This document shows, piece by piece, positions 31,413 to 48,205 of a stretch of 64,000 bases of DNA; within the stretch, counting starts at the first letter, position 1, and every line of letters begins with the position of its first letter. The notes under the pieces are model-generated. The model saw only the letters and a program-made list of their open reading frames with translations, did not search any database and was not told the origin of the DNA. This stretch comes from Devosia naphthalenivorans (GTDB lineage Bacteria; Pseudomonadota; Alphaproteobacteria; Rhizobiales; Devosiaceae), in assembly GCF_003056355.1 (NCBI RefSeq), contig NZ_PYVW01000015.1, positions 1 through 64,000 of the forward strand, given 5' to 3'. Made by a program: the position numbers and the translations under genes.

Positions 31413-32270
31413 ATGCCCAAGGTGTTGGTAACAGGCGGCAGCGGCAAGCTTGGACGGGCCGTTTTGCGGGACCTCGTCGCGCATGGATACGACGTGCTGA
31501 ACCTCGACCAACAGGCTCTCCCAGAGCCGATTTGCCCCAGCGTTCGCATCGATCTGACCGATTTTGGGGAGGTTACGGCGGCCATTCTGGGCGGAGTCGA
31601 CGAGCGCGGCGGGCCGTTTGACGCCGTGGTCCACCTGGCCGCAATTCCCGCTCCGGGCCTTGCCGCCAATGCCCGCACCTTCGCCAACAACGTGCCCGCG
31701 ACCTACAATATCTTCGAAGCATGCCGCCTTTCCGGCGTCAAAAATATCGTTTTTGCTTCGAGCGAGACCGTACTTGGCCTCCCCTTTGCTTCGCCCCCGC
31801 CCTATGCGCCGGTGGACGAAGAGTACTTTCCGCGTCCCGAATCCGCTTACTCTCTCGGCAAGCTGCTGGACGAGACAATGGCCGCCCAGTTTTGCCGCTG
31901 GGATCCCGAACTTCGGATTGTCGGTTTGCGGTTTTCCAACGTCATGTACCCGGAAGACTACAAGGCCTTTCCCAAGTTCGACGCCGACCCACATGCCCGC
32001 AAGTGGAACCTCTGGGGTTACATCGATGCGCGCGATGGGGCACAGGCGGTTCGCCGCTCGATCCAGGCGGATTTTACCGGGTTCGAGGCCTTCATCATAG
32101 CCAATGCCGATACGGTCATGAGCCGGTCCAATATGTCGCTGCTGGCCGAGGTCTTTCCGCAGGTCCCGACCAAGGGCAACATCGCGACCAACAGCACTTT
32201 GCTCAGCATCGACAAGGCCAAGCGGATGCTGGGTTATTCGCCGCAGTTTTCCTGGCGGAACGAGGTTTAA
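31413..32270 (+). CDS. NAD-dependent epimerase/dehydratase
   Basis: 285-residue extended short-chain dehydrogenase. The nucleotide-binding motif is VTGGSGKLGRAVL near the N terminus, and the active site is the SSE motif of the central strand plus YSLGK (Tyr-x3-Lys). The NAD-dependent sugar epimerase/dehydratase family includes UDP-glucose 4-epimerase-like and uronate dehydrogenase-like proteins; the substrate cannot be read from the sequence. The ATG at 31413 follows GGAGG by five bases. Its end overlaps the convergent thiourocanate hydratase-like gene by 4 bp. Confidence 0.85.
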   Translation: MPKVLVTGGSGKLGRAVLRDLVAHGYDVLNLDQQALPEPICPSVRIDLTDFGEVTAAILGGVDERGGPFDAVVHLAAIPAPGLAANARTFANNVPATYNIFEACRLSGVKNIVFASSETVLGLPFASPPPYAPVDEEYFPRPESAYSLGKLLDETMAAQFCRWDPELRIVGLRFSNVMYPEDYKAFPKFDADPHARKWNLWGYIDARDGAQAVRRSIQADFTGFEAFIIANADTVMSRSNMSLLAEVFPQVPTKGNIATNSTLLSIDKAKRMLGYSPQFSWRNEV

Positions 32271-33928
32271 CCGACGGGAATATACCCGATCCCCTTGGCG
32301 GCGATCTCCTCAAGGCCCTCCTCATAGCCGGCGTCGGCGTAGCGCATCACGCCGAGCGCCGTGTCATTGGTGAGGGCATGCTCCAGCCGCTCGTCGGCGG
32401 CGGGTGTGCCATCGGCCACGACGGTTACACCGGCTGACGTCATGTATCCGGCATAGCCGCCACCGCCCGAATGGACCACCACAAGGTCGGCCATGGAGGA
32501 GCAGAGCAGCATGGCGTCGAGAATGGGCCAATCCGCGATCGCGTCCGAGCCGTCTTTCATTCGTTCGGTCATGATGTTGGGATGCGCCATGGCGCCGGCA
32601 TCAAGGTGATCGCGGCTGAAGGCAACAGGACCCGCCAGCGCTCCATCGGCCACCATCTGGTTGACGGCGCGGGCCAGCGCCGTGCGCTCGCCATGTCCGA
32701 GCCAGGCGATACGGGCCGGCAGGCCTTCGAAGGGCACATGCTGGCGCGCAAGCTTGATCCAGTTGGTGACGATCCTGTTGTCGGGGAACATCTCGAGCAG
32801 TTTGTCGTCGATGTTGCTGATGTCCTCGGGATCGCCCGACAGGGCCATCCAGCGGAATGGACCGACGGCGCGGGCGAAAAGCGGCCGCAGATAGGCTTCG
32901 GTGAAGATCTTGATGTCGAAGGCGTTGTCCACCCCGCCCGCCTTGGCCTGGGTGCGGATCAGATTGCCGTTGTCGAAGACCTCCGAGCCTGCCTGCTGGA
33001 AGGCCAGCATGGCACGGACATGGTCGGCGATGGAGGCGCGGCTGGCCGCCATGAGTTGCGATGGTCCCTCGACGCGCAGGCGCCGGACTTCGTCGAGCGA
33101 CATGCCCTTGGGCACATAGCCATAGACCAGATCATGCGCCGAGGTCTGGTCGGTGACGATATCGGGCACGATGCCGCGGCGCGCGATCTCGGGGTAGATC
33201 TCAGCCGCATTGCCGACGAGCCCGATCGATGTTGCCCGCTTCTCGGCAACGGCCCGGTCGATCATGGCCAAAGCGGTATCGAGATCGGGAGCAATTTCTT
33301 CGAGATAGCCAACCTGCTGGCGCTTGCGGGCGCGCTCAGGGTCGATGTCCACGCAGAGGATCGCCGCACCTGCCATGCGTCCGGCCAGTGGCTGCGCCCC
33401 GCCCATGCCACCCAGGCCCGCCGTCAGGATAAACCGTCCCGCGAGGTCTCCACCGAAGCGGTTTTCGGCAATACGCATGAAGATTTCATAGGTGCCTTGG
33501 ATGACGCCCTGGCTGCCGATATATTGCCAGGCGCCCGCAGTGAGCCCGCCCCAGCAGATCAAGCCTTTTCGCTCCAGCTCGTAGAACACTTCCGCCTTGG
33601 CCCACTGCCCCACAATGTTGCAGTTGGCCATGATCACCAAAGGCGCCTTGGCATGCGTTTTGAGCAGGCCGATTGGCTTGCCCGACTGGATGATCAGCGT
33701 CTGGTCCTCGTCCATGCGCAGCAGTGTTTCGACGATGGCCTTGTGGCTGGCCCAATTGCGCGCGGCCTTGCCAAGAGCTGCGTAGACGATCAACTCGTTC
33801 GGGTTCTCGCCGACAGCCAGCACGTTTTCCAGCAGCCGCAGCAGGGCTTCCTGTCGCCAGCCCCTGGCGCGGAGCTCAGGGCCGCCGGGGATGGGGAAAT
33901 TGGGATGGCGGGGGTTTGGTGTGGGCAT
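32267..33928 (-). CDS. Urocanase-family protein, probable thiourocanate hydratase
   Basis: 553-residue protein of normal urocanase length. NAD-binding features include FILTAGLGGMGGAQPLAGRM and the HSGGGGYAGYM C-terminal loop. In true urocanases the signature is FQGLPxRICW with Cys410 (Pseudomonas putida numbering). Here it reads FEGLPARIAW, with Ala408. Thiourocanate hydratases are urocanase relatives that hydrate the sulfur analogue in ergothioneine catabolism, and the neighbours support that role (see the DUF917, hydantoinase, carbamoylase and ergothionase entries). Automated annotation would call it HutU. No hutI or hutG lies nearby. The ATG at 33928 was chosen over a GTG six bases upstream. 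Identification as thiourocanate hydratase is inference. Confidence 0.72.
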   Translation of the reverse strand: MPTPNPRHPNFPIPGGPELRARGWRQEALLRLLENVLAVGENPNELIVYAALGKAARNWASHKAIVETLLRMDEDQTLIIQSGKPIGLLKTHAKAPLVIMANCNIVGQWAKAEVFYELERKGLICWGGLTAGAWQYIGSQGVIQGTYEIFMRIAENRFGGDLAGRFILTAGLGGMGGAQPLAGRMAGAAILCVDIDPERARKRQQVGYLEEIAPDLDTALAMIDRAVAEKRATSIGLVGNAAEIYPEIARRGIVPDIVTDQTSAHDLVYGYVPKGMSLDEVRRLRVEGPSQLMAASRASIADHVRAMLAFQQAGSEVFDNGNLIRTQAKAGGVDNAFDIKIFTEAYLRPLFARAVGPFRWMALSGDPEDISNIDDKLLEMFPDNRIVTNWIKLARQHVPFEGLPARIAWLGHGERTALARAVNQMVADGALAGPVAFSRDHLDAGAMAHPNIMTERMKDGSDAIADWPILDAMLLCSSMADLVVVHSGGGGYAGYMTSAGVTVVADGTPAADERLEHALTNDTALGVMRYADAGYEEGLEEIAAKGIGYIPVG

Positions 33929-33943
33929 GGTCACGTCTCTCAG

Positions 33944-34031
33944 CAGACCTCATCCTGAGCCTGTCGAAGGACGAGGTCGTGGCACCTCGGCAGGCGACCT
34001 CGTGGTTCGACAAGCTCACCATGAGGTCTCT
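33944..34031. repeat. Dispersed paired palindrome, copy 4, inside the operon
   Basis: Two facing units (AGACCTCATCCTGAGCCTGT and CAAGCTCACCATGAGGTCT) fill most of the 137 bp between the DUF917 gene and the thiourocanate hydratase-like gene. It would form a long hairpin in the transcript. Confidence 0.85.
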
Positions 34032-34065
34032 CGTACATCTACAGGGCGGAGGGCAAATAGCCGCC

Positions 34066-35154
34066 TTAACTCAACGCATACCTCGCCAATTCAATCCCCA
34101 TCCGTTCCTCGACAAATGGATACACTGCCGGGTCCAGCACGCTCGAACTCAGTGGAATACCGGTCTTTGGAACATGCAGCACGAACACATACATGCCGCG
34201 GCCCAGTTGCCCGACCGAGAGGGCCTGCCCGGCGGCGTCCAGTGTGGTGATCACATCGGGGAAGGTCGCGAGCCTTGTGCCGCCGGCGTCTTCCACGGCC
34301 ATGTATTCGTTCATGACGTGCAGCGTCGTCGCCTTGTCGCCCTCGCCGATGGTGATGCGGCCGATGTCGAAGGCTTCCCTGGTGTAGGTCACGTCAACAG
34401 CGGTGATGTAACCCTTGGTGAGAATGGTGCCGCCGGTGGTTTCGACGATGGCGTCGAGCATCTTGCCGGGGCCCTTGCCCTCGGCTGACATCATCGCGTC
34501 GCCCAGCTTCAGCGCCAGCGAAATGCCGCCGAGCGCCGCGTGCTTTTGCACATAGCTCGCGCGCAGTGGGTTGCGGCATGAGGCGATAAAGCCGCCGGAC
34601 ATATCGGCGGCAGTACGCAGGATGGGTGAGACTTTTGCCGTCGCGCCACGCGTCACCAGTTCGATATAGCGGTTCTCGGCGCGATTGCCGCCGACAGCGG
34701 TCTGGATCACCTGATCGGGCGATCCGGCCATGCCGATGGAACCCATGTCGCCGGTCGGATGGGCGCGGATATCGCCCACGGCATCCACCACCTTGGTGCC
34801 CAGGATGGCGGAAGGTAGCCAGCCGTTGAGGGTGGATGACTTGCCGTTCTGGCCGACCATCAACCCGCTGACCTTCTCGCCCAGCGCGTCCTGCAGCAAT
34901 TGCACGGCCTTGACATAGTCGACGCCCTGCATTTCCCACGGCGTGGTGGAGGCCGGCGCGCCGATTGCTGCGGCCGTCGCAACCCAATCGTCGGCATCGA
35001 GTTCTTCGATACTCACCAATTCCGGCTTGCCGATGCTGACGGCAGCCTTGCCCAGCATGCGGCCGTGATCAGCCCAGCCACCGCCACCCGCCGCATAGAC
35101 GGAACCGCCACGAACGGCAGCCTCGACGTCCTTTTCGGTCAGGATGCGCCCCAT
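34066..35154 (-). CDS. DUF917 family protein, candidate thiohydantoin desulfurase
   Basis: 362-residue protein of the DUF917 family: an N-terminal AAVRGGSVYAAGGGGWADHG glycine-rich loop, a central MGSIGMAGSPDQVIQTAVGGNR segment, and KGYITAVDVTYTREAFDIG. DUF917 proteins often neighbour hydantoinase genes and lack a well-known activity. The bacterial ergothioneine pathway needs an enzyme that removes sulfur from the thiohydantoin intermediate, reported as a new enzyme type. This is the only unassigned enzyme in an otherwise complete set, so it is the candidate by elimination. Its ATG shares one base with the stop of the carbamoylase gene, so the two are translationally coupled. Confidence 0.6.
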   Translation of the reverse strand: MGRILTEKDVEAAVRGGSVYAAGGGGWADHGRMLGKAAVSIGKPELVSIEELDADDWVATAAAIGAPASTTPWEMQGVDYVKAVQLLQDALGEKVSGLMVGQNGKSSTLNGWLPSAILGTKVVDAVGDIRAHPTGDMGSIGMAGSPDQVIQTAVGGNRAENRYIELVTRGATAKVSPILRTAADMSGGFIASCRNPLRASYVQKHAALGGISLALKLGDAMMSAEGKGPGKMLDAIVETTGGTILTKGYITAVDVTYTREAFDIGRITIGEGDKATTLHVMNEYMAVEDAGGTRLATFPDVITTLDAAGQALSVGQLGRGMYVFVLHVPKTGIPLSSSVLDPAVYPFVEERMGIELARYALS

Positions 35155-36407
35155 CAGATAGTCTCCTGCAATTTGATATCGAGGGCCTTGACTGCGTCCA
35201 GCAGCACGGCCGTGCCGAGTGCGATATCGTCCACCGTGGCGAACTCGTCCGGCGAATGACTGCGGCCGTCCTTGCAGGGAACAAAGATCATCGCGGCCTT
35301 GGCGATCCGGGCCATCCAGGCGGTGTCGTGCCCTGCTCCCGACGCCATGCGCCGGTGACGCGCCCCAGCGCTCTCGCATGCCGCGTCGAGCACATCGAGC
35401 ACATCGGCATCGCAGGGCGTGGGCGGATTGTCCGAGATGATGCGGGGTTCGGTAGCGCCGACGCCGGTTTTTTCGCTGATGGCCGCCACGCCCTTGGCGA
35501 GTTCATCGATGAACCGGTCCATGTCATCGCGCAGTTCGGCACGCGCATCGATCAGCATCCGCACCCGCGCTGGCACCACATTGGCCGCATTGGGCAGCAT
35601 TTCGAATTCACCAACGGTGGCCGCGAAATGCTCTTCGCCGCTCGCCAGCGCCTTGGCCAGTTCTTCCACGCCAAGCGCGATCCATGCGGCCGTTGTCAGC
35701 GCATCCTTACGCGAGCCCATGGGGGTGGTTCCAGCATGATCGGCGCGCCCTTCGACGACGATCTCGATGCGGGTAATGCCGGCGATGGCTGTTACCACGC
35801 CCACGTCCAATTGCTCGTTTTGCAGCACGGGTCCTTGCTCGATGTGGAGTTCAAGGAATGCCTTGATGTCGTCGCGCTGAGCCGGCTTGAATGGTTCGCC
35901 GCCGACCTGAACGATCCCCTGCTCGAGCGTAATACCTGCGGCCTCGCGTTCCAGCCATTCCCTGGGCTGGGTGCCGCTGATGCCGCGGCTGCCGATACAG
36001 GAGACGCCAAAGATCGAGACTTCTTCGGCGAGAAAATCGACGATCTCCAGGGTATGGGCCAGCACTGCGCCCTGGTCGCGCAGCGCGCGGGCTACTTCCA
36101 GCGCGGCGATGACCCCGGCGACGCCATCGAAACGTCCACCGTCAGGCACGGTGTCCGAATGAGAGCCGAGCAAGATGGTGCCAAGCTCGGGCCGCTGCCC
36201 GGGAATGGTGCCGATGAGGTTACCGGCAGCGTCTATCTGTGTCACGGCGCCTGCATCTTGCATCGCCTTTTCGAGCCAGCGGCGGCCTTCAAGGAACAGG
36301 GGGGTGAAAGCGCGACGGGTATAGGGCCGGTCGGGTTCGGTTATTGCCGCCAGGGCGTAGATGTCGGCTTCGATGCGGTCGGGGCGGATGGGGGAGTTTG
36401 GGGTCAT
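35154..36407 (-). CDS. M20-family amidohydrolase, probable N-carbamoyl-glutamate hydrolase
   Basis: 417-residue protein of the allantoate amidohydrolase/beta-ureidopropionase/N-carbamoyl-amino-acid hydrolase group. Di-metal ligands are visible: GSHSDTV (His), GGRFDGV (Asp), LAEEVSIFG (Glu) and ELHIEQGPVL (His), with the late ASGAGHDTAWM (His). The dimerisation-domain motif ADHAGTTPMGSRKDAL is also present. In context it would release glutamate, CO2 and ammonia from N-carbamoyl-glutamate, the last step of the proposed pathway. AllC or HyuC function on other substrates is the alternative. It is coupled to the DUF917 gene (TGATG). Confidence 0.78.
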   Translation of the reverse strand: MTPNSPIRPDRIEADIYALAAITEPDRPYTRRAFTPLFLEGRRWLEKAMQDAGAVTQIDAAGNLIGTIPGQRPELGTILLGSHSDTVPDGGRFDGVAGVIAALEVARALRDQGAVLAHTLEIVDFLAEEVSIFGVSCIGSRGISGTQPREWLEREAAGITLEQGIVQVGGEPFKPAQRDDIKAFLELHIEQGPVLQNEQLDVGVVTAIAGITRIEIVVEGRADHAGTTPMGSRKDALTTAAWIALGVEELAKALASGEEHFAATVGEFEMLPNAANVVPARVRMLIDARAELRDDMDRFIDELAKGVAAISEKTGVGATEPRIISDNPPTPCDADVLDVLDAACESAGARHRRMASGAGHDTAWMARIAKAAMIFVPCKDGRSHSPDEFATVDDIALGTAVLLDAVKALDIKLQETI

Positions 36408-36440
36408 GGTAGATGGTTTTCCCAGATCGGGGCTCTCCGC

Positions 36441-36555
36441 ACCCCCTCCCAACCTCCCCCGTCAAGGGGGAGGTGCCGGGCCGGTGAACGGGGCAAGATA
36501 CTGCTCAAGGCAGGATGCGGCACCTCCCCCCTTGCGGGGGAGGCTGGGTGGGGGG
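36441..36555. repeat. CCTCCCCC/GGGGGAGG inverted repeats between hydrolase genes
   Basis: Two palindromes, CCTCCCCCGTCAAGGGGGAGG and CCTCCCCCCTTGCGGGGGAG type (cores quoted), separated by about 45 bp, fill the 166-bp gap between the hydantoinase and carbamoylase genes. Another element of this family lies at 10074-10110. Confidence 0.85.
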
Positions 36556-36573
36556 ATGTTTGGGCGATGAACA

Positions 36574-37929
36574 TCAGTGCTTCCATTCCGGCCGCACAAA
36601 CCGCCCACTTCCCGGCTCCGCAACATTGGTGCCATCGAATACCTGGCTCCCGCGCAGATAGGTCAGCCCCACAGTCCAGGGCAGTTCGATGCCATTGTAG
36701 GGCGACCAGCCCACCACATTGTGCCCGCTGGCGGCGGCATCGTAGCGCTGGGGGCGCGGGAACAGCACGGCGATATCGGCGTCCTTGCCCACTTCCAGCG
36801 CGCCCTTCTGGCTCAGCCGAAAATGGCGCGCCGGATTTTCGGCCATCAGCCTTGCCGCCCAGGTCAGCGGAATACCGCGCTGCAGCGCGCCCATCACGAA
36901 GAGCGGCACCATGACTTCCAGACCCGGTACGCCCGAAGCATTGGCCAGCATGTCGGGATTGTTCTTACGATTTTCAGACCAACTGACGTGATCGGTGGAA
37001 ACCAGCGTTACATTGCCCTGGCGGACGTGCTCCCAGAGCTTTTCGACCTCGGCGCGCGGCCGGATCGGCGGGTTGATCTTGGCTTTGCCGCCCAGGCGGG
37101 CGACATCGTTTTCTTCGTCCAGGGTCAAATAGTGAATGCAGCACTCGATGGTGGCGGCAAAGCCCTGGTCGCGATAGAGGCGGGCGATTTCATAGCCGCG
37201 TCCGAGCGAGCAATGCACCACATGGGCCGGGCAGCCGGTCTGGGCGCCGGTTTCGTAGATCTGCAGGCTCGCCAGCAATTCAGTGAGCGGCGGGCGGCTC
37301 ATGGCATGAGCGCGATAATCGGTGATGCCCTGCGCCTTGACCTTGGCGATGGCCGCGCGCACCGCTTCATCATCCTCATTGTGTACGCCGGCCGTCAATC
37401 CGGTGGGCGCGATGGCGGCGAAGCACTCCTCGAGCAGCGCAGGCGGAATGCGCGGAAAGCGAACCGGATCGGTGCCGAAGGTGGAGAACTTGAAGGCGGC
37501 AACGCCGGCCTCCACCTGCTCGAGGATACGCGAGGCACCCTCCTCCGGCAGAACCGTGCCATAGAGCGCGAAATCCACCCGCGCCTGCGGTTCCGCATGG
37601 GCGATCTTGCGCCGGACGGCTTCGGCCGAGCACACCAGATTGCCTTCGTCATAGGGCATGTCGACAATTGTGGTGACGCCACCCGCCGCTGCCGAACGGG
37701 TGGACCAGATGAAATCCTCCTGGTCCTTCTGGCTCAGCGAATGGGTCTGCGCGTCGATTGCGCCGGGCAGGATCAGGGCATTGCCGAGGTCGTGCCGCTC
37801 CTTGGCGGCAGGCGCGGTGCCTTCGCCCACATGGGCAATTTTGCCATCGCGAAAGGCCACATAGCCATTTTCGATAATGGTGTGCGGCAGCACGACTGTG
37901 CCCGAAAGCGAGAGGTCAAAATCAGACAT
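36574..37929 (-). CDS. Dihydropyrimidinase/hydantoinase-family amidohydrolase with altered metal site
   Basis: 451-residue cyclic amidohydrolase. Residues matching the di-metal site are Lys147 (carbamylated lysine, AAFKFST), His183 (HNED), His236/His239 (HVVH) and Asp313 (STDH). The usual first H-x-H is DAQTHS, with Gln61 replacing the first histidine and only His63 kept, so one metal site is changed. In context the expected reaction is ring opening of hydantoin-5-propionate to N-carbamoyl-glutamate. Allantoinase or dihydropyrimidinase remain alternatives. It starts 21 bp after the end of the ABC permease gene, in the same operon. Confidence 0.75.
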   Translation of the reverse strand: MSDFDLSLSGTVVLPHTIIENGYVAFRDGKIAHVGEGTAPAAKERHDLGNALILPGAIDAQTHSLSQKDQEDFIWSTRSAAAGGVTTIVDMPYDEGNLVCSAEAVRRKIAHAEPQARVDFALYGTVLPEEGASRILEQVEAGVAAFKFSTFGTDPVRFPRIPPALLEECFAAIAPTGLTAGVHNEDDEAVRAAIAKVKAQGITDYRAHAMSRPPLTELLASLQIYETGAQTGCPAHVVHCSLGRGYEIARLYRDQGFAATIECCIHYLTLDEENDVARLGGKAKINPPIRPRAEVEKLWEHVRQGNVTLVSTDHVSWSENRKNNPDMLANASGVPGLEVMVPLFVMGALQRGIPLTWAARLMAENPARHFRLSQKGALEVGKDADIAVLFPRPQRYDAAASGHNVVGWSPYNGIELPWTVGLTYLRGSQVFDGTNVAEPGSGRFVRPEWKH

Positions 37930-37950
37930 CGGAACAGGCCCTCGCTCTGG

Positions 37951-38703
37951 TCATGCAGACGCCCTTCCCAATTGGCCGGTGCGCAGCATCAATGTGCGCT
38001 CCAGCGCCGACAGCGCATCATAGATCAATACCGCCAGCACGCCGACGATCAAGCCGCCCTGCAACACGAAGGCCGTATTGCCGGTGGTGAGGCCGGCAAT
38101 GATGACTTCGCCCAAGGTGCGGGCTGCGACGGTGGAGCCGATCGTGGCGGTGGCGAGCGAGATGACGGTCGAGAGCCTGATCCCAGCCAGAATCACCGGC
38201 AGCGCCAGGGGCAGTTCGATTTTCACCAGCCGTTGCCAGCCCGTCATGCCGACGCCCTTGGCGGCGTCTGTCACTGCCGGCGGCAGATTGGTGAGCCCGG
38301 TCAGGGTATTCTCGAATATCGGCAGCAGGCCATAGAGGAACAGCGCCACCAGCGTCGGTGCAGTGCCGAAACCCAGCATCGGCACCGCGAGCGCGAGGAC
38401 GGCCACCGGGGGAAACGTCTGCCCGACATTGGCGAGCGAGCGCGACAGGGGCAGGAATTCGGCGCCGAATGGGCGGGTAACGATGATCGCCAAGCCCACG
38501 GCGATGATGGTGGACGCCAGCGTTGCCGCCAACACGATGCCGAGGTGATTGATGGTGATATCGAGCAGATTGCCCTGGTTGTAGATCGCCGGCTGGGTGT
38601 CGCGGGCAAAGAGCCCGAAGAAGCCGCTGAACAGGTCGGGGTTGACCAGCAGCAACACCAGGATCGCGAAGGCAAGAACCCTGAGCAGATTGCCGATGGT
38701 CAT
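37951..38703 (-). CDS. OpuC/YehW-type ABC transporter permease
   Basis: 250-residue inner-membrane permease with about six helices and the BPD_transp_1 signature ending in AAKGVGMTGWQRLVKIELPLALPVILAGIR (EAA-loop region). Length equals E. coli YehW. Its start overlaps the ATPase gene by 4 bp. With the other three genes it forms an importer of the quaternary-amine type in the order yehZ-Y-X-W. In this operon the likely ligand is ergothioneine, itself a trimethylammonium compound. Confidence 0.85.
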   Translation of the reverse strand: MTIGNLLRVLAFAILVLLLVNPDLFSGFFGLFARDTQPAIYNQGNLLDITINHLGIVLAATLASTIIAVGLAIIVTRPFGAEFLPLSRSLANVGQTFPPVAVLALAVPMLGFGTAPTLVALFLYGLLPIFENTLTGLTNLPPAVTDAAKGVGMTGWQRLVKIELPLALPVILAGIRLSTVISLATATIGSTVAARTLGEVIIAGLTTGNTAFVLQGGLIVGVLAVLIYDALSALERTLMLRTGQLGRASA

Positions 38704-39632
38704 TGCGGACGCGCCAATCGCGCGAGGGCGTCGAGGGTCACCTGACCGACGAGCTGGCCGTCCCGGCGGACTGGCAGGGCCGAGCGGCCGGACCACAGGA
38801 GCTCGGCGTAGGCGTCTCGCAGGGATGCGGTGGCGTCGATGGGCTCGCCGTCCGGCGTGCCCGGTTCAAGATGGTCCGCCACTGTGGCGAGCGACAGCAG
38901 GCGGAATGGCCGTTCGCTGGTGCCGATCAGTTCGGCGACGAAGGGCGTGGCCGGATTGGCGATGATTTCGGCGGGTTTGTCGCATTGCAGCAGCTTGCCC
39001 TTGTCCATCACGGCGATGACGTCGCCCAGATGGATGGCTTCCTCCATGTCGTGCGTCACCAGCACCACGGTGGTGCCGAAACGGCGCTGGATGGACAGCA
39101 AATCCTCCTGCGCCTTGGCGCGGATGACGGGATCAAGCGCGCCATAGGGCTCGTCCATCAAGAGGATATTGGGCCCGGCCGCCAGCGCCCGCGCCACGCC
39201 GACGCGCTGTTGCTGGCCGCCCGAGAGTTCGTGCGGCAAGCGATCGCGGAACTCGGCAGGGTCGAGCTGGAAGAGGCTGAGCAATTCATCAACGCGGTCG
39301 GCGGTCTTGCGCTTGTCCCAGCCGAGCAGCTTGGGAACGGTTGCCACGTTCTGGCCCACCGTGCGGTGGGGGAAAAGCCCGTGCCCCTGGATGGCGTAGC
39401 CTATCCTGCGGCGCAGCTCGTAGGCGGGGATGCCGGCGATATCCTGCCCATCGATACGGATGTGGCCGGAGGTTGGCTCCACCAGCTTGTTGATCATTCG
39501 CATCAGCGTGGTCTTGCCGGAACCGGAGGTGCCCACGATCACGCAGATGCTGTGCGGCTCGATGGTGAGTGTCACCCGGTCCACGACCGCGGTGGTGTTG
39601 TAGACCTTGGTGATGTCGTCGATTTCGATCAT
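38700..39632 (-). CDS. OpuC/YehX-type ABC transporter ATP-binding protein
   Basis: 310-residue ATPase with Walker A GTSGSGKT, Q-loop in YAIQGHGLFPH, signature LSGGQQQR, Walker B ILLMDEP and the H-loop VTHDMEEA. The ~75 residues after the ATPase core look like a single degenerate CBS-type segment, as in YehX/OpuCA relatives. It overlaps both permease genes by 4 bp. Confidence 0.9.
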   Translation of the reverse strand: MIEIDDITKVYNTTAVVDRVTLTIEPHSICVIVGTSGSGKTTLMRMINKLVEPTSGHIRIDGQDIAGIPAYELRRRIGYAIQGHGLFPHRTVGQNVATVPKLLGWDKRKTADRVDELLSLFQLDPAEFRDRLPHELSGGQQQRVGVARALAAGPNILLMDEPYGALDPVIRAKAQEDLLSIQRRFGTTVVLVTHDMEEAIHLGDVIAVMDKGKLLQCDKPAEIIANPATPFVAELIGTSERPFRLLSLATVADHLEPGTPDGEPIDATASLRDAYAELLWSGRSALPVRRDGQLVGQVTLDALARLARPQ

Positions 39633-40822
39633 GGACGGCGCACTCCGCGCGATGTCATTTCTACCAGCGCGTCGAGCACGACGGCGGCCGCGAAAGCCAG
39701 CGCCACGGTGGGGATGGCGCCCAACAGCACGAGATCCATTGCCGTTTGTCCGATGCCCTGGAAAACGAACACGCCGAAGCCGCCGCCGCCGATCAATGCG
39801 GCGATGGTGGCGAGGCCGATATTTTGCACCAGCACGATGCGGATGCCGGTGAGGATGACGGGAAAGGCCAGCGGCAGTTCGATGCCGACCATGCGCTGGC
39901 GGCCGGTCATGCCCATTCCCTTGGCCGCGTCCACGGCAGCAGGCGGAACGCCGAGCAGGCCGACCACGGTGTTGGAAACGATGGGCAGCAGCGAATAGGC
40001 GAAGAGCGCAACCATGGCCGGCGCGGCCCCGATGCCGGAAATACCGGCGGCGGACGCGCCGGGAACGTTCGCCGCCACCCAGGCCAGCGGCGCAATCAGC
40101 AGGCCGAAGAGCGCGATCGAGGGAATGGTCTGGACGATGTTTAGCACATTGAGCACCGCCGCCCGGACGGGCCGGACCTTGTAGCAGAGTATGCCAAGCG
40201 GCATGCCGACCACTGCGGCGATGGCGACGGAGCCGAACGCCAGCGCCAGATGGGTACGCGCTTCGGCCCAGAATGCGGGGGCGCGGGTGCTGTATTCCTT
40301 GAGGAGCGACAGATCGTTCCAGCTGCCGCTCCAGAGCAGCAGTGTGGCGGCGGCAATCACGGCCAAGAGGATAGCGATGCGCGCTAGAGGCGCCAGGCGT
40401 AGGCGGGTCAGCGCGTCGGTGACCAGGAGCGCAAAGGCAAAGACCAGCAGCCAGAAGCCGGCGCCGGGGGAAACCCGGGCGAAGGTGTCACCCTCCGGGG
40501 TGAGGTATCCGGCCGACCAGCCGATGACGACGAACAAAGTTGCAAGGACAGCAAAGCCCGCGACCAGTTTGGCAATGATGGGCAGCCTGAGCAACGCCAC
40601 GGCGAAACCGACCAGCAATATTCCGATCAGGAGGGCAGCGGGGAAGCTTGGCAGTGCATCGAGCAGCGAACGTGGTTCGCCGAGCACGATGCGGTTGGCG
40701 CGGAATAGGGCGAATGGCAATGCGGCGCCGGCAAGAGCAATCAGGGCGATGAGGACGCCGAGTTTGTCGAGGGCGAGCCAGGTGGGGCGGGACGTTGCAC
40801 TCTGTGCTGCGGCAAGGCTCAT
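39629..40822 (-). CDS. OpuC/YehY-type ABC transporter permease (long form)
   Basis: 397-residue permease. The N-terminal ~170 residues add several extra hydrophobic helices before the standard permease domain, whose EAA region reads DAAKGMGMTGRQRMVGIELPLAFP. This long form is specific to YehY-type systems (E. coli YehY 385 aa) and separates them from other OpuC permeases. It is divided from the binding-protein gene by 140 bp that contain a perfect 20-bp inverted repeat. Confidence 0.87.
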   Translation of the reverse strand: MSLAAAQSATSRPTWLALDKLGVLIALIALAGAALPFALFRANRIVLGEPRSLLDALPSFPAALLIGILLVGFAVALLRLPIIAKLVAGFAVLATLFVVIGWSAGYLTPEGDTFARVSPGAGFWLLVFAFALLVTDALTRLRLAPLARIAILLAVIAAATLLLWSGSWNDLSLLKEYSTRAPAFWAEARTHLALAFGSVAIAAVVGMPLGILCYKVRPVRAAVLNVLNIVQTIPSIALFGLLIAPLAWVAANVPGASAAGISGIGAAPAMVALFAYSLLPIVSNTVVGLLGVPPAAVDAAKGMGMTGRQRMVGIELPLAFPVILTGIRIVLVQNIGLATIAALIGGGGFGVFVFQGIGQTAMDLVLLGAIPTVALAFAAAVVLDALVEMTSRGVRRP

Positions 40823-40905
40823 GCAGGCTCCGGATGTTCGGGTGGGATCGTGCTACGCCGCCACCAAAAACGCGGTGTCATCCCGGGTGAGGAGACACCT
40901 CGCCT

Positions 40906-40947
40906 CCCACCGCGTCATTCCCGCGAACGCGGGAATGACGCGGTGGG
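40906..40947. repeat. Perfect 20-bp inverted repeat between binding protein and permease genes
   Basis: Arms CCCACCGCGTCATTCCCGCG and its exact complement are separated by AA. It contains the GGGAATGACG core seen at 117-151 and 47061-47128. On RNA it would form a very stable hairpin after the binding-protein gene, able to protect its 3' end or attenuate transcription. Confidence 0.9.
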
Positions 40948-40962
40948 CTCCAAACTCTGCCC

Positions 40963-41874
40963 CTACTGCAAAAAGCCAGCCGTCGTCAGATAGTCGGTCG
41001 CCACGGCAGCGGCTGCTTCGCCGCCGACCTGGACGCGGCCATTGAGTTCCTGCAGCACTTCGAGGGTGAGGCTTTCGAACACGGGCTTGAGCAGTTCTTC
41101 GATCTGCGGATATTCGGCGAGCACTTCTTCGCGGATGATCGGCGCGGGCTGATAGACCGGCTGCACGCCCTTATCGTCTTCCAGAACCGTTAGGCCGGAG
41201 GGCGCGATGCCGCCGTCGGTGCCATAGACCATCGCGGCATTGACGCCATTGGTCTGCTGGGCAGCAGCGGCGATGGTTGCCGCGGTGTCGCCGCCCGAAA
41301 GGGTCACGAGCTGATCCGGGGAGAGCGTGAAGCCATAGACTTCCTGGAACTTGGGCAGCGCTGCAGGCGAGTTCACGAACTCGGCGGAGGCCGCGAGCTT
41401 CACCTCGCCGCCACCGGCAACCCAGGCGCCGAACTCGGTGAACGTGGTCAGGTTGTTGGCCTCTGCCACATCGCTACGGATGGCGACCGCCCAGGTGTTG
41501 TTGGCCGGCGATGGGGTCAACCAGACGATCTTGTTGGCTTCATAGTCGAGCTTGGCGACCTCGGCATAGGCCGATGCTGCGTCATTCCAGATCGGGTCTT
41601 CCGCCTTGTCGAAGAAGAAGGCGCCATTGCCGGTATATTCGGGATAGATGTCGATTTCGCCCGCAGTGATGGCTTCGCGCACGATCGGGGTGGCGCCGAG
41701 CTGGATGCGGTTTTCCACCGAGATATCATTGGATTCCAGCACCTGCTTGATGATGTTGCCCAGCACGCCGCCTTCGGTATCGATCTTGGAGGAAACGACA
41801 ACCTGGGCATTGGCCGAAGTGACCGAGATGGCGAGCGCAGCAACGGCGCTCAGAAGAGTGGACTTGAGGCGCAT
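40963..41874 (-). CDS. OsmF/YehZ-type quaternary-amine-binding protein
   Basis: 303-residue periplasmic binding protein of the OpuAC family. A signal peptide (RLKSTLLSAVAALAISVTSANA|Q) is followed by the family start VVVSSKIDTEGGVLGNII and the ligand-pocket segment EIDIYPEYTGNG. E. coli YehZ (OsmF) binds betaine-type compounds weakly, and OpuC-type systems that take up ergothioneine are known (EgtU/EgtV). Next to ergothionase, ergothioneine or hercynine is the likely ligand. The ATG at 41874 follows GGAG; a start at 41901 would add nine residues before the signal peptide. Confidence 0.82.
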   Translation of the reverse strand: MRLKSTLLSAVAALAISVTSANAQVVVSSKIDTEGGVLGNIIKQVLESNDISVENRIQLGATPIVREAITAGEIDIYPEYTGNGAFFFDKAEDPIWNDAASAYAEVAKLDYEANKIVWLTPSPANNTWAVAIRSDVAEANNLTTFTEFGAWVAGGGEVKLAASAEFVNSPAALPKFQEVYGFTLSPDQLVTLSGGDTAATIAAAAQQTNGVNAAMVYGTDGGIAPSGLTVLEDDKGVQPVYQPAPIIREEVLAEYPQIEELLKPVFESLTLEVLQELNGRVQVGGEAAAAVATDYLTTAGFLQ

Positions 41875-41966
41875 GATTTCTCCGTTTCCCTGGGCATTCA
41901 CCGCGCAGCGCGGCTCTTGTCCAACGTAGATTACCGTTTTGGCAGAATTGGGCTAGGCCGCAAATG

Positions 41967-43526
41967 CTACGGAACCAGGCCCAACGCGAAAAACTCATCC
42001 AGTTCCATGACGGTTGAGTGGGCGATAAGTTCACCCATGAATGGATGGGATTGCAATGCCCTTTCCACCACCTCCACTTCAGCCGACAGCGGACGGTCGG
42101 CGACATAGTAGGCGGCGTGCTGCCGGACCAGGTCATAAATCATGCCGGGCACATTGCCGGGACTGTCCTGCGTAATGTCCAGCGCCTGGGCAGCAAGGAT
42201 CGCCTCAAGCGCCGCAAGCCGCTGCAGCGCCAGCACTTGCCGCTCCAGACGTTCAACGACAAGCGGCAGGAACGCCGCTTCGTCCTCCATGCCGCCCGCG
42301 ACGACCATCGAATTGGCCGAAATGGGGTTGGTCATGGAAAGGACGCGGGCGAACAATTCTCCCGCCAGCTTGATGATCGGACCGAAGCCCGTAGCGATGG
42401 CGCCCGGCGCCACCAAATTGACCGGCAATTCCCGGCGACCGCCATTGCCGAGAAGCACGCAGCGGTTGAACGAATTGCGCGCCACATGCGTCAGCCCAAG
42501 CTGGGCAGTCTGCAGGAACACGGTCACATCAAGCGGCAGGGAACCGCCCGAGGTCAGGATTTGCCCGCCGGCAACCACTGGATTATCGTCAGTCCGCCCC
42601 GTGGCGGCGAGCAAGGTCTTGCCCGCCACTACCAGCGTATCGAAAGCGGTGGCAAACACCTGGCTCATCATGCGCAGGCTCAATGGGTCCTGAATGTGGG
42701 TGGCATCAGGCCAGTCCCAACCCTTGGCATTGAAGTAGAGCCAAGCGCCGATCCCGGCTTCGCGATCGGTGCCGACATGGGCCACGGCCTTCCACGGGTC
42801 GCGCGAAGCACCCAAGGCCCCTGCAGTCGTCAGGGCCGTTGCCAGCATCACGCGTACCGTGGTCGCAGCTTGCCGAATGGCCGTGGCGGCCGCGGCATAG
42901 CCAACAGCATTGGTGGATATCGACGCCAGGCTATCGCGCGGAGCCAGGCGGAATGGCTTGAGCCCTGCCGCTGCCAGGGCTTGTCCGGCAGGCTGGCGGC
43001 GATCGGCAAATATGGCCTCACCCGAGCCGGTCAGCACGGCGCCGATCTGGCCCATCAAGCCAATGTCCGCGCAACCGATCGAGCCGGTTCGCCGCACCAC
43101 CGGCACCACATCGGCCGAGAGCAACGCCAGATAAGCCTCCACCAGATCGGCAGTGCAGCCGACCCGGCCGGTCAGCGCCATGTTGACGCGGATCGCCATA
43201 GCCGTGCGCACGATCTCGGAGGAGAAGGCTTCACCGGTACCGAAATGGTGGGCGCGGACCAGGCCCAGATTGAACTCGTCCAACTGGTCGGGCGTCCACT
43301 CCACATCCTTCATGGCGCCCACTCCGGTGGTCGAGCCATAGACCGGCCGGCGATGCGCAATGGCATCCTCGATGACCTCGCGTGCATTGCCGACGCGCTC
43401 CATCGCGAGCGGATCGGCGAGCACACTGGCCTTGCGGGTTCCTATTCGGGCAATGTCGGAAAAACTCAGCGGCTTGCCACTGAGCAGGATTGGCTCGGAC
43501 GAGAGGGAGACAGCATGTTCGTTCAT
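41967..43526 (-). CDS. HutH-family lyase without MIO triad, probable ergothionase
   Basis: 519-residue homologue of histidine ammonia-lyase, conserved in VYGSTTGVGAMKD (Tyr63 region) and TDDNPVV. In HAL and PAL the electrophilic MIO group forms from Ala-Ser-Gly in GSxGASGDL. Here the same place reads GSIGCADIGLMG (Cys152-Ala153-Asp154), so MIO cannot form from a serine. Ergothionase, which eliminates trimethylamine from ergothioneine to give thiourocanate, is a HAL relative that does not need MIO. The gene is the first of a nine-gene same-strand cluster with a urocanase relative lacking its cysteine, hydantoin-type hydrolases and a quaternary-amine importer. The gene starts 20 bp after rhaQ. 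Calling it hutH would probably be wrong. Confidence 0.75.
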   Translation of the reverse strand: MNEHAVSLSSEPILLSGKPLSFSDIARIGTRKASVLADPLAMERVGNAREVIEDAIAHRRPVYGSTTGVGAMKDVEWTPDQLDEFNLGLVRAHHFGTGEAFSSEIVRTAMAIRVNMALTGRVGCTADLVEAYLALLSADVVPVVRRTGSIGCADIGLMGQIGAVLTGSGEAIFADRRQPAGQALAAAGLKPFRLAPRDSLASISTNAVGYAAAATAIRQAATTVRVMLATALTTAGALGASRDPWKAVAHVGTDREAGIGAWLYFNAKGWDWPDATHIQDPLSLRMMSQVFATAFDTLVVAGKTLLAATGRTDDNPVVAGGQILTSGGSLPLDVTVFLQTAQLGLTHVARNSFNRCVLLGNGGRRELPVNLVAPGAIATGFGPIIKLAGELFARVLSMTNPISANSMVVAGGMEDEAAFLPLVVERLERQVLALQRLAALEAILAAQALDITQDSPGNVPGMIYDLVRQHAAYYVADRPLSAEVEVVERALQSHPFMGELIAHSTVMELDEFFALGLVP

Positions 43527-43546: not shown

Positions 43547-44560
43547 CTAGGCGCTGCGCACCGATGATCGCTGCCGCCACATGCGGAACAGGATCGGCAG
43601 GGCGATCACCATGATCAGCAATGCGCCGATGAAGATCGACATCACGATCCCCGGCACGTTGAGAAGACCCAGCCCGAAGGTCACCAGCCCCATGATCAGC
43701 GCCGCGAGGACGACGCCCACGATCGAGCCGGCGCCACCCAGGATCGAAACTCCGCCCAGCACCACCATGGTGATGGCTTCGAGTTCCCATCCCTCGGCAA
43801 TCGACGGGCGGGTGGAGCCGAGCCGCGCAGTCAGCAGAACCGCTGCCATGCCGCTCATCAGGCCGGTGAGGCAAAACAGGATGAACTTGGTACGAGCGAC
43901 ACGCACGCCGGAGAACTCCGCCGCCACGTCGTTATTGCCGATAGCGTAGACCCGGCGCCCGAAATTGGTGCGTTGCAGCAGCACAAAGTAGACAGCGGCG
44001 CAAACCAGGAACAGCACGAGTTCGAACGAGATCACCCAATATACATAGCCCTGGCCGAACCAGGAAAAGCTTGCCGGATAGCCCTTGAAGCTCTGGTCGC
44101 CCAGGATGATGAAGCTGATGCCGCGGAAGAGGCTCATGGTGCCGATCGTGACCACTATGGACGGCAGCTTGAGGCCGGTCACAAGGAAGCCGTTGAACGC
44201 GCCGCAGAGGATGCCGGTGCCGATGCCGATCGCCACCAGGGCCGGCGTGTCGGCACCAAACTGCAGCGCCCAACCCATCAGCGTGGATGCCAGTGCGATG
44301 ATCGCGGCAACCGACAGGTCGATTTCGCCGGAGATGATCAGCAGCGCCATGGCGAGCGCAATCAAGGCCTTCTCGGTGAAGTTGAACGTCATGTCCGAAA
44401 GGGACCATTCGTTCAGGAAGTAGGGCGATGCGAGTGAATTGAGGATGAAGATGGCGATGGCCACCAGCACCAGTAGCGATTCCCAGCTCAACACGGTTGC
44501 CTTGAACGGGCTATCCAGACGGTTAGGTAGGCGGCGAGGGGTTGCGGTTGTGTCGGTCAT
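43547..44560 (-). CDS. rhaQ: Rhamnose ABC transporter permease RhaQ
   Basis: 337-residue inner-membrane permease of the ribose/rhamnose (CUT2) type with about nine hydrophobic helices. It carries AIALASTLMGW and VSILGGAGSIVGVVLAALIMG, the conserved CUT2 permease segments. It overlaps rhaP by 4 bp and is the second permease of the importer. In Rhizobium leguminosarum rhaQ is followed by rhaU (mutarotase) and rhaK (kinase); here the ergothionase-like gene follows instead. Confidence 0.88.
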   Translation of the reverse strand: MTDTTATPRRLPNRLDSPFKATVLSWESLLVLVAIAIFILNSLASPYFLNEWSLSDMTFNFTEKALIALAMALLIISGEIDLSVAAIIALASTLMGWALQFGADTPALVAIGIGTGILCGAFNGFLVTGLKLPSIVVTIGTMSLFRGISFIILGDQSFKGYPASFSWFGQGYVYWVISFELVLFLVCAAVYFVLLQRTNFGRRVYAIGNNDVAAEFSGVRVARTKFILFCLTGLMSGMAAVLLTARLGSTRPSIAEGWELEAITMVVLGGVSILGGAGSIVGVVLAALIMGLVTFGLGLLNVPGIVMSIFIGALLIMVIALPILFRMWRQRSSVRSA

Positions 44561-45534
44561 ACGGCCTCCGCCTTCTTCAGGATGATCCGGCCCTTGCGTT
44601 GTTCGCCACGGGCGTTCAGCACCACGGCAAGCAGGATCGCCGAGCCGGAAATCGCCATCTGCCAGAACGGCGATATATTGATGACAGGCAGGGCGTTGTT
44701 GATGACGCCGAGGAAGAGCGCCCCGAGCAGTACGCCCGTGACGGTGCCGATGCCGCCGGCGATGGACACGCCACCGATCACGCAGGCCGCGATGATGGTG
44801 AGTTCATATCCGCTCGCCACTTCCGTCGACGCGATCACGTAGCGGGACACCCAGAGATAGCCGCAAAGGCCGGCCATGGCGCCCGCAATGGTGAAGGCCA
44901 TGAACTTGGTGCGGCCTACGTCGATGCCGGTATAGACCGATGCTGTCGGATTGACGCCGATGGCATAGAAGGAGCGCCCGAGAGGTGTTCGCGTCATCAT
45001 AAGCCAGAACAGCAGCGCCACGACGATGGCGAACCAGCTCAGCAATGGCAGGCCGAGGAACACCATGCGCTGCAGATTGATGAAATCGGGGCTCATCTGG
45101 GCCGCGTTGACCCAGGCGCCGTTGGAAATCACGAACACCAGGCCGCGGTAGATCGTCAGCGTGCCGAGCGTCACCACGATCGGCGGGATGCTCAGCTTCC
45201 ACACCAGCACGCCATTGAACGCGCCCAGCCCTGCGCCAATGACGACGCACATCGCCATCAGCAGCGGGATCGGCGCGCCGGGGAATGCCGCGTTGGTCAT
45301 GGCGACGATCATGCCGGTGAGCGCCAGATTGGCGGCCATGGACAGGTCGATCGAGCGGGTGAGGATCACCACCATCTGCCCGAGTGCGAGCATCATCAGA
45401 ATGGAGGTGTCGTTGAAAATGGTCAGCAGATTCTGCGGCTGAGCGAAGCGCGGGAAACGCGCGGTGACGATCACCAGCAGCAGCAGAATGGCGAGGCCGA
45501 GCCAGATTTCGCGGTGTTTGGTCAGCGCCTTCAT
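44557..45534 (-). CDS. rhaP: Rhamnose ABC transporter permease RhaP
   Basis: 325-residue CUT2-type permease with an N-terminal LAILLLLVIVTARFPRF helix and the conserved GGVSIAGGIGTVTGVLLGALFLG near the C terminus. It overlaps rhaT and rhaQ by 4 bp. With RhaQ it forms the membrane channel for rhamnose import. Confidence 0.88.
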   Translation of the reverse strand: MKALTKHREIWLGLAILLLLVIVTARFPRFAQPQNLLTIFNDTSILMMLALGQMVVILTRSIDLSMAANLALTGMIVAMTNAAFPGAPIPLLMAMCVVIGAGLGAFNGVLVWKLSIPPIVVTLGTLTIYRGLVFVISNGAWVNAAQMSPDFINLQRMVFLGLPLLSWFAIVVALLFWLMMTRTPLGRSFYAIGVNPTASVYTGIDVGRTKFMAFTIAGAMAGLCGYLWVSRYVIASTEVASGYELTIIAACVIGGVSIAGGIGTVTGVLLGALFLGVINNALPVINISPFWQMAISGSAILLAVVLNARGEQRKGRIILKKAEAV

Positions 45535-47036: not shown

Positions 47037-47060
47037 GAAGCGGTCTTTGAGCCTTCACCA

Positions 47061-47128
47061 CGTCATTCCCGCGAAGGCGGGAATCTCCCTTCGGCTGAAA
47101 GGGGATTCCCGCCTTCGCGGGAATGACG
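47061..47128. repeat. Long inverted repeat between rhaS and rhaT
   Basis: CGTCATTCCCGCGAAGGCGG and its complement extend to arms of about 28 bp around a short GGCTGA-type loop. Same GGGAATGACG family as 40906-40947, and again placed directly after a binding-protein gene. Confidence 0.88.
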
Positions 47129-47175
47129 CCGTGGGTTGGAAGGTGGCCGGGCGCATGCGCCCGGCCGTAGCAGTC

Positions 47176-48162
47176 TCAATAAATCTTGCTGAACTCTTCG
47201 ATGTTGGACTTGTCGAACTGGAACGGCACGGCCATTGCAGCAGCGTTGGTGTCGTCCAGGGTCACTTCGCCAACGCGGCCGATCGAGAAGGTTGCGCCCG
47301 GAGCAGCTTCTTCGCCTTCAACCAGTGCGTTGGCCAGCATCACGGCCGAGTAGCCCAGATCGATCGGGTTCCACAGGGCAACGGCCTGCGAAGCACCATT
47401 GTCGATGAACTGCTTGAACTCGGATGGCAGCGCGAGGCCGGTCACGTTGATCTTGCCGATCAAATCTTGGTCGGTGACCACCTGGGCCGCCGCAACAACG
47501 CCGACCGTGGTCGGGGCTATGATGGCCTTGAGATCAGGATAGGCTGCAATCAGGCCCTTGGCTTCGTCGGTGGACTTCACCGAGTCGTCGTCGCCATAGA
47601 CGGTCGCGACCAGATTGATGTTGGGGAACTTCTCGGGCAGCGCAGCTTTGGCCGCTTCGATCCAGGCGTTCTGGTTGGTTGCCGTTGACGCAGCCGACAG
47701 GATCGCCACGTCGCCACCTTCGGGCAGATAATCGGCGGCCAGCTTGATAATGGTTTCGCCGATCAGGGCGGTGTCGGATGGGTTAAGATGGATCTGGCGG
47801 CCTTCTTCGGCAACGCCGGAGTCGAACGACACAACCTTGATGCCGCGCTGCATGGCGCGCTGCAGAGCCGGCACCAGCGCATCAGGATCGTTGGCGGAGA
47901 TGGCGATGGCGTCGACCTGCTGGGCGATCAGCGAGTTGATGACTTCGATCTGGGCTTCGGCGGTTGCAGCTGTTGGGCCGGTATAGATGACTTCGACATC
48001 GCCCAGTTCGGCGGCAGCTTCCTGCGCGCCCTTGTTGGCGGCGTCAAAGAAGCCGTTGCCGAGCGACTTCACGACGAGCGCGATGCGGGTCTGGGCATAG
48101 GCTGGAGCGGCGAGCAACACTGCAACGGCAGTGGTGGCGGCCAGTACTTTCAAAAGCTTCAC
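47176..48162 (-). CDS. rhaS: Rhamnose-binding periplasmic protein RhaS
   Basis: 328-residue CUT2-type sugar-binding protein with a signal peptide (VKLLKVLAATTAVAVLLAAP, cleavage after AYA). The GTG at 48162 was chosen: GGGAGG lies eight bases upstream, and it puts the signal peptide at the N terminus. The mature part begins with the sugar-binding pattern IALVVKSLGNGFFDAANKGAQ. It is first in the rhaSTPQ transport operon, 43 bp after the rhaR stop. Confidence 0.9.
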   Translation of the reverse strand: MKLLKVLAATTAVAVLLAAPAYAQTRIALVVKSLGNGFFDAANKGAQEAAAELGDVEVIYTGPTAATAEAQIEVINSLIAQQVDAIAISANDPDALVPALQRAMQRGIKVVSFDSGVAEEGRQIHLNPSDTALIGETIIKLAADYLPEGGDVAILSAASTATNQNAWIEAAKAALPEKFPNINLVATVYGDDDSVKSTDEAKGLIAAYPDLKAIIAPTTVGVVAAAQVVTDQDLIGKINVTGLALPSEFKQFIDNGASQAVALWNPIDLGYSAVMLANALVEGEEAAPGATFSIGRVGEVTLDDTNAAAMAVPFQFDKSNIEEFSKIY

Positions 48163-48205
48163 TTCGGTTTCCCTCCCTGGGATCTTCTGGTCTTTGCGTT
48201 TCGCT

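Follow-up and report, generated by a model that had tools for sequence, protein, structure and literature searches.

Does the block of nine co-oriented genes at positions 32267 to 43526 of the 64,000-nucleotide stretch analyzed here (positions 1 to 64,000 of contig NZ_PYVW01000015.1 from the soil bacterium Devosia naphthalenivorans, hereafter the window) break down histidine, as the HutH- and HutU-type families among its products would have it, or does it handle another substrate? A preliminary description of the window had read the block as a complete operon for the uptake and catabolism of ergothioneine, built from a HutH relative without the 4-methylideneimidazole-5-one (MIO) triad, a four-gene YehZYXW-type importer, a hydantoinase-like and a carbamoylase-like hydrolase, a DUF917 protein and a urocanase relative lacking its signature cysteine. 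Our follow-up, which extended to the whole genome (a Devosia-like assembly of 4.49 Mb in 55 contigs), bore out each of these gene identities, and the pathway assignment is very probably right as well. Judging by the protein families encoded, we consider it highly probable that the nine genes constitute one operon for the uptake and complete catabolism of ergothioneine. The names HutH, HutU and OsmF mislead in this setting—standard annotation would assign parts of the cluster to the degradation of histidine and the uptake of glycine betaine.

The whole set is encoded on the minus strand, from position 43526 down to 32267, and every reading frame is open throughout, as the preliminary description had stated. 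The order of transcription is ertA, a substrate-binding protein (SBP) gene, a permease gene, an ATPase gene, a second permease gene (permW), ertD, ertE, ertC and ertB; the names ErtD and ErtE are those of NCBIfam, and ErtA, ErtB and ErtC are labels given here to the lyase, the hydratase and the desulfurase, respectively. Gene starts were refined by reading of the N-termini (ErtA, 43526; SBP, ~41874; permW, 38703; ErtE, ~36407; ErtC, 35154; ErtB, ~33928). With these starts, neighboring genes share a few bases at three junctions and no intergenic gap reaches 170 bp—a tight spacing, as in an operon. Within a set of relatives (80 loci kept of 178 relatives, from which records of the window's own genome may be left out), 20 loci, including that of the D. 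limi type strain (L003), hold all nine genes, so the grouping is not a chance cluster; in nine loci ErtA stands by itself, and 11 are incomplete in other ways, in several cases through truncation at a contig end. The closest named lyase loci in this set belong to Devosia, with identities of up to 87%. No regulator family was found in family searches of the nine proteins, and promoter- and terminator-like sites are no commoner in the operon region than in shuffled sequence.

The first gene, ertA (41967..43526, minus strand), codes for a member of the histidine ammonia-lyase (HAL) family (PF00221) that reaches only 206 bits on the hutH model, against a cut-off of 539, and passes no NCBIfam model at its cut-off. 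Among solved structures, it matches ergothionase best (6s7j, 183 bits); the highest-scoring HAL reaches 140 bits. In the MIO region, the window lyase reads GSIG-CA-DI where HutH has GSVG-ASG-DL, i.e., the Ala-Ser-Gly triad is reduced to two residues, Cys152-Ala153 (43068-43073, minus strand); the ergothionase of Treponema denticola, which has Glu-Gly at this position, is likewise one residue short. The loop residues are Cys-Ala or Thr-Ala in 93/93 ErtA loci, and the first of them is Cys in 90 and Thr in eight of 98 loci (some genomes being counted twice in these tallies and in the next). Moreover, Asn195 and Tyr280, which are active-site residues of HutH, are replaced by Ser204 and Leu282, the very changes seen in the T. 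denticola enzyme; these Ser and Leu replacements recur in 98/98 ErtA loci and are absent from the MIO enzymes compared. The equivalents of HutH Tyr53, His83, Arg283 and Glu414 are retained in all 15 aligned rows. The window lyase shares all these features—family membership, shortened loop, both replacements and the four retained residues—with the ergothionases of T. denticola (6s7j, 6s7q) and Burkholderia. According to PMC13405746, ergothionase operates without MIO, is known from T. denticola, Burkholderia, Cupriavidus and Agrobacterium radiobacter, and is expressed by Burkholderia on ergothioneine as the sole nitrogen source. We infer that the window lyase acts on ergothioneine too.

The four enzymes downstream of the importer genes all exceed the cut-offs of curated models for the remaining steps. 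The product of ertB (32267..33928, minus strand; open reading frame (ORF) up to 33934) scores 1051 bits on the thiourocanate hydratase model NF058530, with a cut-off of 930. The DUF917/S-Me-THD protein encoded by ertC (34066..35154, minus strand; ORF up to 35379) attains 584 bits on the thiohydantoin desulfurase model NF058529, whose cut-off is 440. ErtD (36574..37929, minus strand) matches hydantoin-5-propionate amidohydrolase (NF058538) with 777 bits over 600, and ErtE (35154..36407, minus strand; ORF up to 36452) matches N-carbamyl-L-glutamate amidohydrolase (NF058540) with 588 bits over 520, although ErtE scores higher still on an unspecific Zn-dependent hydrolase model (NF009531, 616 bits; cut-off, 486). 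The signature cysteine is a functionally important residue of canonical urocanase; ErtB has Ala410 at this position (codon 32705-32707, minus strand), and Ala was found there in 70 of 78 ErtB loci, the motif search having failed in the other eight. The closest solved relative of ErtB, 7ned (822 bits), was deposited as urocanate hydratase and has Gly at the Cys position; we take it to be a thiourocanate hydratase. The reactions attributed to ErtB, ErtC, ErtD and ErtE in this operon are predictions, drawn from the curated family names and from the literature.

These assignments can be assembled into a scheme for the entire route. In the periplasm, the OsmF-type SBP would capture the trimethylammonium betaine within a cage of aromatic residues, and ergothioneine would then enter the cell through the YehYXW-type ATP-binding cassette (ABC) importer. 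ErtA would then eliminate trimethylamine to yield thiourocanate—a step for which, we propose, no MIO is needed, since a good leaving group is already built into the substrate. ErtB would hydrate thiourocanate to 2-thiohydantoin propionate, ErtC would take off the sulfur as sulfide to give hydantoin-5-propionate, ErtD would open the ring to form N-carbamyl-glutamate, and ErtE would release glutamate, CO2 and ammonia. A five-step bacterial route for ergothioneine, to which the preliminary description had pointed, is indeed in print, reportedly by Beliaeva, Leisinger and Seebeck in 2021, and a related pathway for ergothioneine sulfonate is said to have been described by Yan in 2022. The window operon resembles the five-step route in its MIO-less lyase and its four post-lyase enzymes; it differs in that the lyase belongs to a clade other than the structurally solved one and in that an OsmF-type importer is inserted between the lyase and ErtD. 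The pathway is already known, and what is new here is a further member with an embedded candidate importer. EgtD, an enzyme of ergothioneine biosynthesis, is present in one of 121 Devosiaceae genomes and was not found in the window genome; ergothioneine would therefore have to be imported.

The importer genes follow ertA on the same strand. The SBP (40963..41874; ORF up to 41901) scores 497 bits on the OsmF model NF049931 (cut-off, 400), has 4nd9, 5teu and 4wep (OsmF) as solved relatives, and is the sole OsmF match in the window genome. It is succeeded by a permease in the YehY position (39629..40822; PF00528, BPD_transp_1), an ATP-binding subunit in the YehX position (38700..39632), whose gene overlaps that of the permease by 4 bp and whose best match, the proV subfamily TIGR01186, stays below its cut-off (279 of 327 bits), and a second permease, permW, in the YehW position (37951..38703; ORF up to 38796; PF00528). 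The corresponding E. coli genes are ordered YehZYXW. The SBP score and the SBP-permease-ATPase-permease arrangement place the window importer with OsmF/YehZYXW of E. coli; in contrast to that system, it sits inside an ergothioneine operon. EgtU, the ergothioneine-binding component in Firmicutes, is a permease-SBP fusion; no such fusion was found among the importer genes of the window, which are separate. Compared with EgtUV of Firmicutes (PMC9732360), the window SBP falls into the same broad SBP class, but it comes as a separate protein with two different permeases and with six pocket residues changed. Pocket positions and residue roles were taken from PMC9732360, and the positions were transferred by way of an EgtU-like protein alignable to the EgtUC chains. 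An EgtU-like fusion was also observed in the course of the analysis. Equivalents of EgtU K242, T275, N339, E375, Y419 and Y443 are kept in the window SBP; those of K242, N339, Y419 and Y443 are invariant across the OsmF rows, and those of I243, T275 and E375 nearly so.

The case for a functional tie between importer and enzymes is carried by their genomic association. Among 121 Devosiaceae genomes, ErtB passes its cut-off in 45, ErtA is present (E of 1e-100 or better) in 43 and the OsmF-type SBP occurs in 77. Every ErtA-positive genome also has ErtB (43/43), and ErtB without ErtA at this threshold was seen in two genomes, G007 (71% complete) and G072. In 39 of the 43 ErtA-positive genomes, the gene that immediately follows ertA in the same orientation is that of the SBP; the exceptions are G053, G087, G092 and G117, and the ErtA match of G117 is a partial one. 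Altogether, the SBP is found in 40/43 ErtA-positive versus 37/78 ErtA-negative genomes (Fisher p 1.7e-7, a value that overstates independence because the genomes are related). Farther afield, an even draw of 385 alphaproteobacterial genomes yielded ErtB over cut-off in five, the window's own included; the nine-gene order is the same in three of these, namely the window genome, G168 and G390, the last two of which represent two other alphaproteobacterial families and have ErtA proteins that are 46-47% and 36-37% identical to that of the window, respectively. No OsmF importer was detected within the 20 kb taken from G143 and G214. Rearranged versions of the cluster were also observed: Martelella alba (L039) has the order ErtA-importer-ErtC-ErtB, Ochrobactrum quorumnocens (L154) has a divergent importer beside ErtA-D-E-C-B, and D. 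epidermidihirudinis has a split cluster (L005, L143) in which the importer has remained beside ErtA, with ErtD-E-C-B at a separate location. The frequent adjacency to ertA, together with the nine-gene order in two other families, makes a working link between importer and pathway likely.

Several observations weigh against reading the nine genes as a single, dedicated unit. First, the enzymes occur without the importer: 40 of the 80 loci in the set of relatives, mostly from Rhizobium, hold ErtA, ErtD, ErtC and ErtB with no OsmF importer, three further loci (L122, L123, L124) likewise have these four without it, and the importer is not present in the shorter ert clusters of L158 and L160. Second, the importer occurs without the enzymes. 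The SBP is found in the 37 ErtA-negative Devosiaceae genomes just mentioned. At six loci from ErtA-negative genomes of the window's genus (L102, L103, L105, L106, L108 and L110), the importer occupies the same site, adjacent to rhamnose transport (rha) genes, and the 10.9 kb extracted there contain no ert gene; similarly, Sinorhizobium, Ensifer, Burkholderia and Azospirillum plasmid copies of the SBP gene show no ert genes within 8-9 kb on each side. Third, EgtU G244, F293, T296, Y337, Y341 and R379 correspond to D, Y, N, A, W and S in 65/65 OsmF rows (an alignment that leaves out L011, L127, L082 and L084 and keeps near-duplicates), and these six changes hold in linked and unlinked rows alike as well as in 29/29 rows of a wider set. 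Fourth, ert-linked and unlinked SBPs intermix in the trees. Finally, on the side of the enzymes, the ErtA clade is separate from the ergothionase type of T. denticola, Burkholderia arboris and P. denitrificans, and at the 21 columns that separate five ErtA proteins from three HALs and at which the T. denticola enzyme matches either, the latter carries the HAL state at 16 and the ErtA state at five.

Two candidate signatures of an ergothioneine-dedicated SBP were rejected. A single ert-specific SBP clade was not recovered, as linked and unlinked copies are intermixed in both trees. The first tree—built without the frame-disrupted L011 and L127, without L082 and without the near-duplicates L113, L116, L118, L120 and L132—required 11 changes of the linkage label versus a shuffled mean of 19.4, with 0/500 shuffles as low; the label is therefore clustered, yet not in one clade. 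In the wider, thinned tree (22 of 68 earlier rows plus seven new ones), 10 label changes compare with 9.8 after shuffling. Likewise, an ert-specific pocket was sought at 15 EgtU-equivalent positions, 13 of which are the same or nearly so in linked and unlinked copies; the equivalent of D381 varies without a clear pattern. The equivalent of T274 does lean with ert linkage, being Gly in 28/35 linked and 7/25 unlinked rows; L159 and L161 likewise have Gly at this position, whereas the window SBP and Ochrobactrum L154 have Ala. Part of this lean is accounted for by shared descent, because four of the seven unlinked Gly copies (L103, L106, L108 and L110) stand at the ert site, and the pattern is compatible with a slight adjustment to ergothioneine or with nothing more than common ancestry. 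According to PMC9732360, T274 touches the thione sulfur and is not strongly conserved even in EgtU.

The most durable alternative builds on this evidence: the enzymes would degrade ergothioneine, and the importer would be an ordinary low-affinity transporter of glycine betaine or a similar betaine, placed in the operon as trimethylammonium compounds occur together, with ergothioneine entering the cell mainly by other means. We regard it as a possible though rather unlikely account. The SBP family is named for glycine betaine, its pocket is almost unchanged in unlinked copies, the rha-adjacent importer is found in genomes devoid of ErtA, and the determinants of EgtU are missing. Set against this are the direct adjacency to ertA in nearly all ErtA-positive Devosiaceae and the arrangement of all nine genes shared with two further families. 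In addition, D. epidermidihirudinis, in which the cluster is split, keeps the importer with ErtA and away from ErtD-E-C-B, and the T274 equivalent leans with linkage. We infer that the importer carries ergothioneine, although it is probably not exclusive to this compound; the proposed reading is that it keeps other betaine work and therefore survives where the ert genes are absent. Of the preliminary description's claim that the operon runs the known route with an importer of its own, the part concerning the enzymes (four equivalog matches and an ergothionase-like lyase) is supported, and the importer is the least secure element: its linkage is strong, but it also occurs in genomes without ert genes, its linked and unlinked copies intermix, and its pocket departs from that of unlinked copies just by a lean at one position. 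A broader proposition—that OsmF/YehZYXW is a second, proteobacterial class of ergothioneine (thione-betaine) importer, unlike EgtU in its pocket, and that ergothioneine may be the missing physiological ligand of the family—can be put forward only tentatively, and we think it doubtful. The main text of PMC9732360 mentions neither YehZ nor OsmF; no paper joining OsmF or YehZ with ergothioneine was found among the matches listed, most subscription papers being outside the coverage, and those joining ergothioneine, Rhizobium and ABC transporters were off the subject by title.

A second alternative, which we hold to be improbable, is that the operon serves a close analogue, such as S-methyl-ergothioneine, ergothioneine sulfonate or hercynine. 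It draws on the published pathway for the sulfonate, on the existence of S-methyl versions of two of the enzymes in NCBIfam, and on the distance between the window lyase and the T. denticola type. This distance was gauged with two small trees (nine and 15 rows) with long branches and no placed root. In the 15-row tree, the lyases of T. denticola, B. arboris and P. denitrificans form one group (support, 96/96), the MIO enzymes a second (100/99), which includes an MIO-type lyase found beside ErtC-ErtB in L160, and the window-type lyases a third (100/100), with Cys or Thr in the loop instead of Glu; in this unrooted, long-branched topology, the two MIO-less types fall on the same side of the HAL branch. 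The B. arboris homologue (L151), a stand-in for its genus and not the characterized HME13 protein, is 29% identical to the window lyase (tblastn). By these trees, the window lyase appears as a second, divergent MIO-less type. The analogue hypothesis is countered by the model scores: the S-methyl-substrate models remain below cut-off (746 of 880 bits for ErtB; 286 of 450 bits for ErtC on NF058532), whereas the thione models for the same two proteins pass, and hercynine would require no desulfurase.

A divergent histidine-utilization cluster, which the HutH- and HutU-type families and the score of ErtB on the general hutU model TIGR01228 (694 bits over 375) would evoke, is very improbable, since the lyase and hydratase share their families with hutHUIG but lack both catalytic hallmarks (the MIO triad, with Tyr280 and Asn195 also replaced, and the urocanase cysteine), a DUF917 protein, hydantoin hydrolases and an importer of the quaternary-amine class are present, and no hutI exceeds the cut-off in the whole window genome (10 weak matches), in line with the preliminary description. 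Apart from ErtB, no second urocanase was matched in that genome. An MIO-type (ASG) HutH relative, below the hutH cut-off, is encoded elsewhere in it (L083, G000:C21:11329-12918).

Fungi and certain bacteria produce ergothioneine; to our knowledge, its degraders in soil and on plants are poorly mapped. No paper joining ergothioneine and Devosia was found in a search whose coverage excluded most subscription papers. The operon predicts that Devosia should grow on ergothioneine with release of trimethylamine and sulfide. It would also provide a candidate ergothioneine importer class outside Firmicutes and a genetic handle on the function of OsmF/YehZYXW.

Other clusters with ert genes differ in their lyases and transporters. 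In Paracoccus aminophilus and Thalassospira marina (L150, L152), ErtD-E-C-B without a nearby ErtA are accompanied by tripartite ATP-independent periplasmic (TRAP) transporter genes and may serve to scavenge thiourocanate. In G072 (L121), from the window's genus, ErtD-E-C-B lie beside an Opp/Dpp/Nik-type ABC permease gene that scores below family cut-offs, with no ErtA at the threshold used and with the OsmF importer far off on the same contig. The rhizobial loci holding ErtA alone had been considered as orphans without the rest of the pathway, an idea contradicted by five of the six genomes tested out of nine, where ErtB over cut-off lies apart from ErtA (G121, G122, G124, G125 and G126). The sixth, Shinella sp. 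UYSO24 (G123), has just disrupted ErtB pieces and one match below cut-off; its ErtB match (L142, G123:C8:166053-167600) is broken into three fragments, one of which contains an in-frame stop, with ErtA elsewhere—apparently decay or sequencing error. In four of the six rhizobial genomes with ErtA apart (L137-L140), ErtE-C-B adjoin an amino-acid-type ABC importer, a HutC-type regulator and an NtaA/DmoA-type monooxygenase, a neighborhood not seen in L141 and L142; ErtD was matched in L139 and L140, and the HutC-type repressor of L140 scores 285 bits over 220. P. denitrificans (L156) and B. arboris (L151) carry the T. denticola-type lyase after ErtB, and the stretches covered contain no OsmF match; an ergothionase is thus not always accompanied by OsmF. 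As a lead based on small numbers, the transporter could follow the entry point of the pathway, i.e., OsmF with ergothionase, and carboxylate-type TRAP or amino-acid-type ABC systems with ErtD-E-C-B where no ergothionase is local.

Three other neighborhoods deserve mention. In L160 (9096-13594; G214), a lyase with an intact ASG triad directly precedes ErtC and ErtB—perhaps a thiourocanate-type pathway fed by an MIO enzyme. The pAt plasmid of Agrobacterium tumefaciens (L157) combines DUF917, urocanate hydratase-like, Zn-dependent hydrolase and amidohydrolase genes with a molybdopterin S/N-oxide reductase and ABC genes, and may encode an S-oxidized or S-methylated variant. In Microvirga ossetica (L155), ErtC-, ErtD- and ErtE-like genes stand beside a dihydropyrimidinase and an amino-acid ABC importer, with no ErtB or ErtA in the stretch.

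Upstream of ertA, a rhamnose-type ABC importer operon occupies 43547-48240 of the window (SBP RhaS, 480 bits; cut-off, 342). The stop of rhaQ is 20 bp from ertA, and the ert genes may be transcribed by read-through because this operon ends so close. The corresponding gap in relatives is 27 bp between matches in L001 and ~375 bp in L002, L012, L017 and L021. A rhamnose mutarotase gene separates rhaQ from the importer in L102; the mutarotase of the window genome is on another contig. At 18032-22729, the window also encodes subunits of an Mrp-type cation/proton antiporter (Proton_antipo_M, MbhD and MbhE domains), unrelated to the ert operon.

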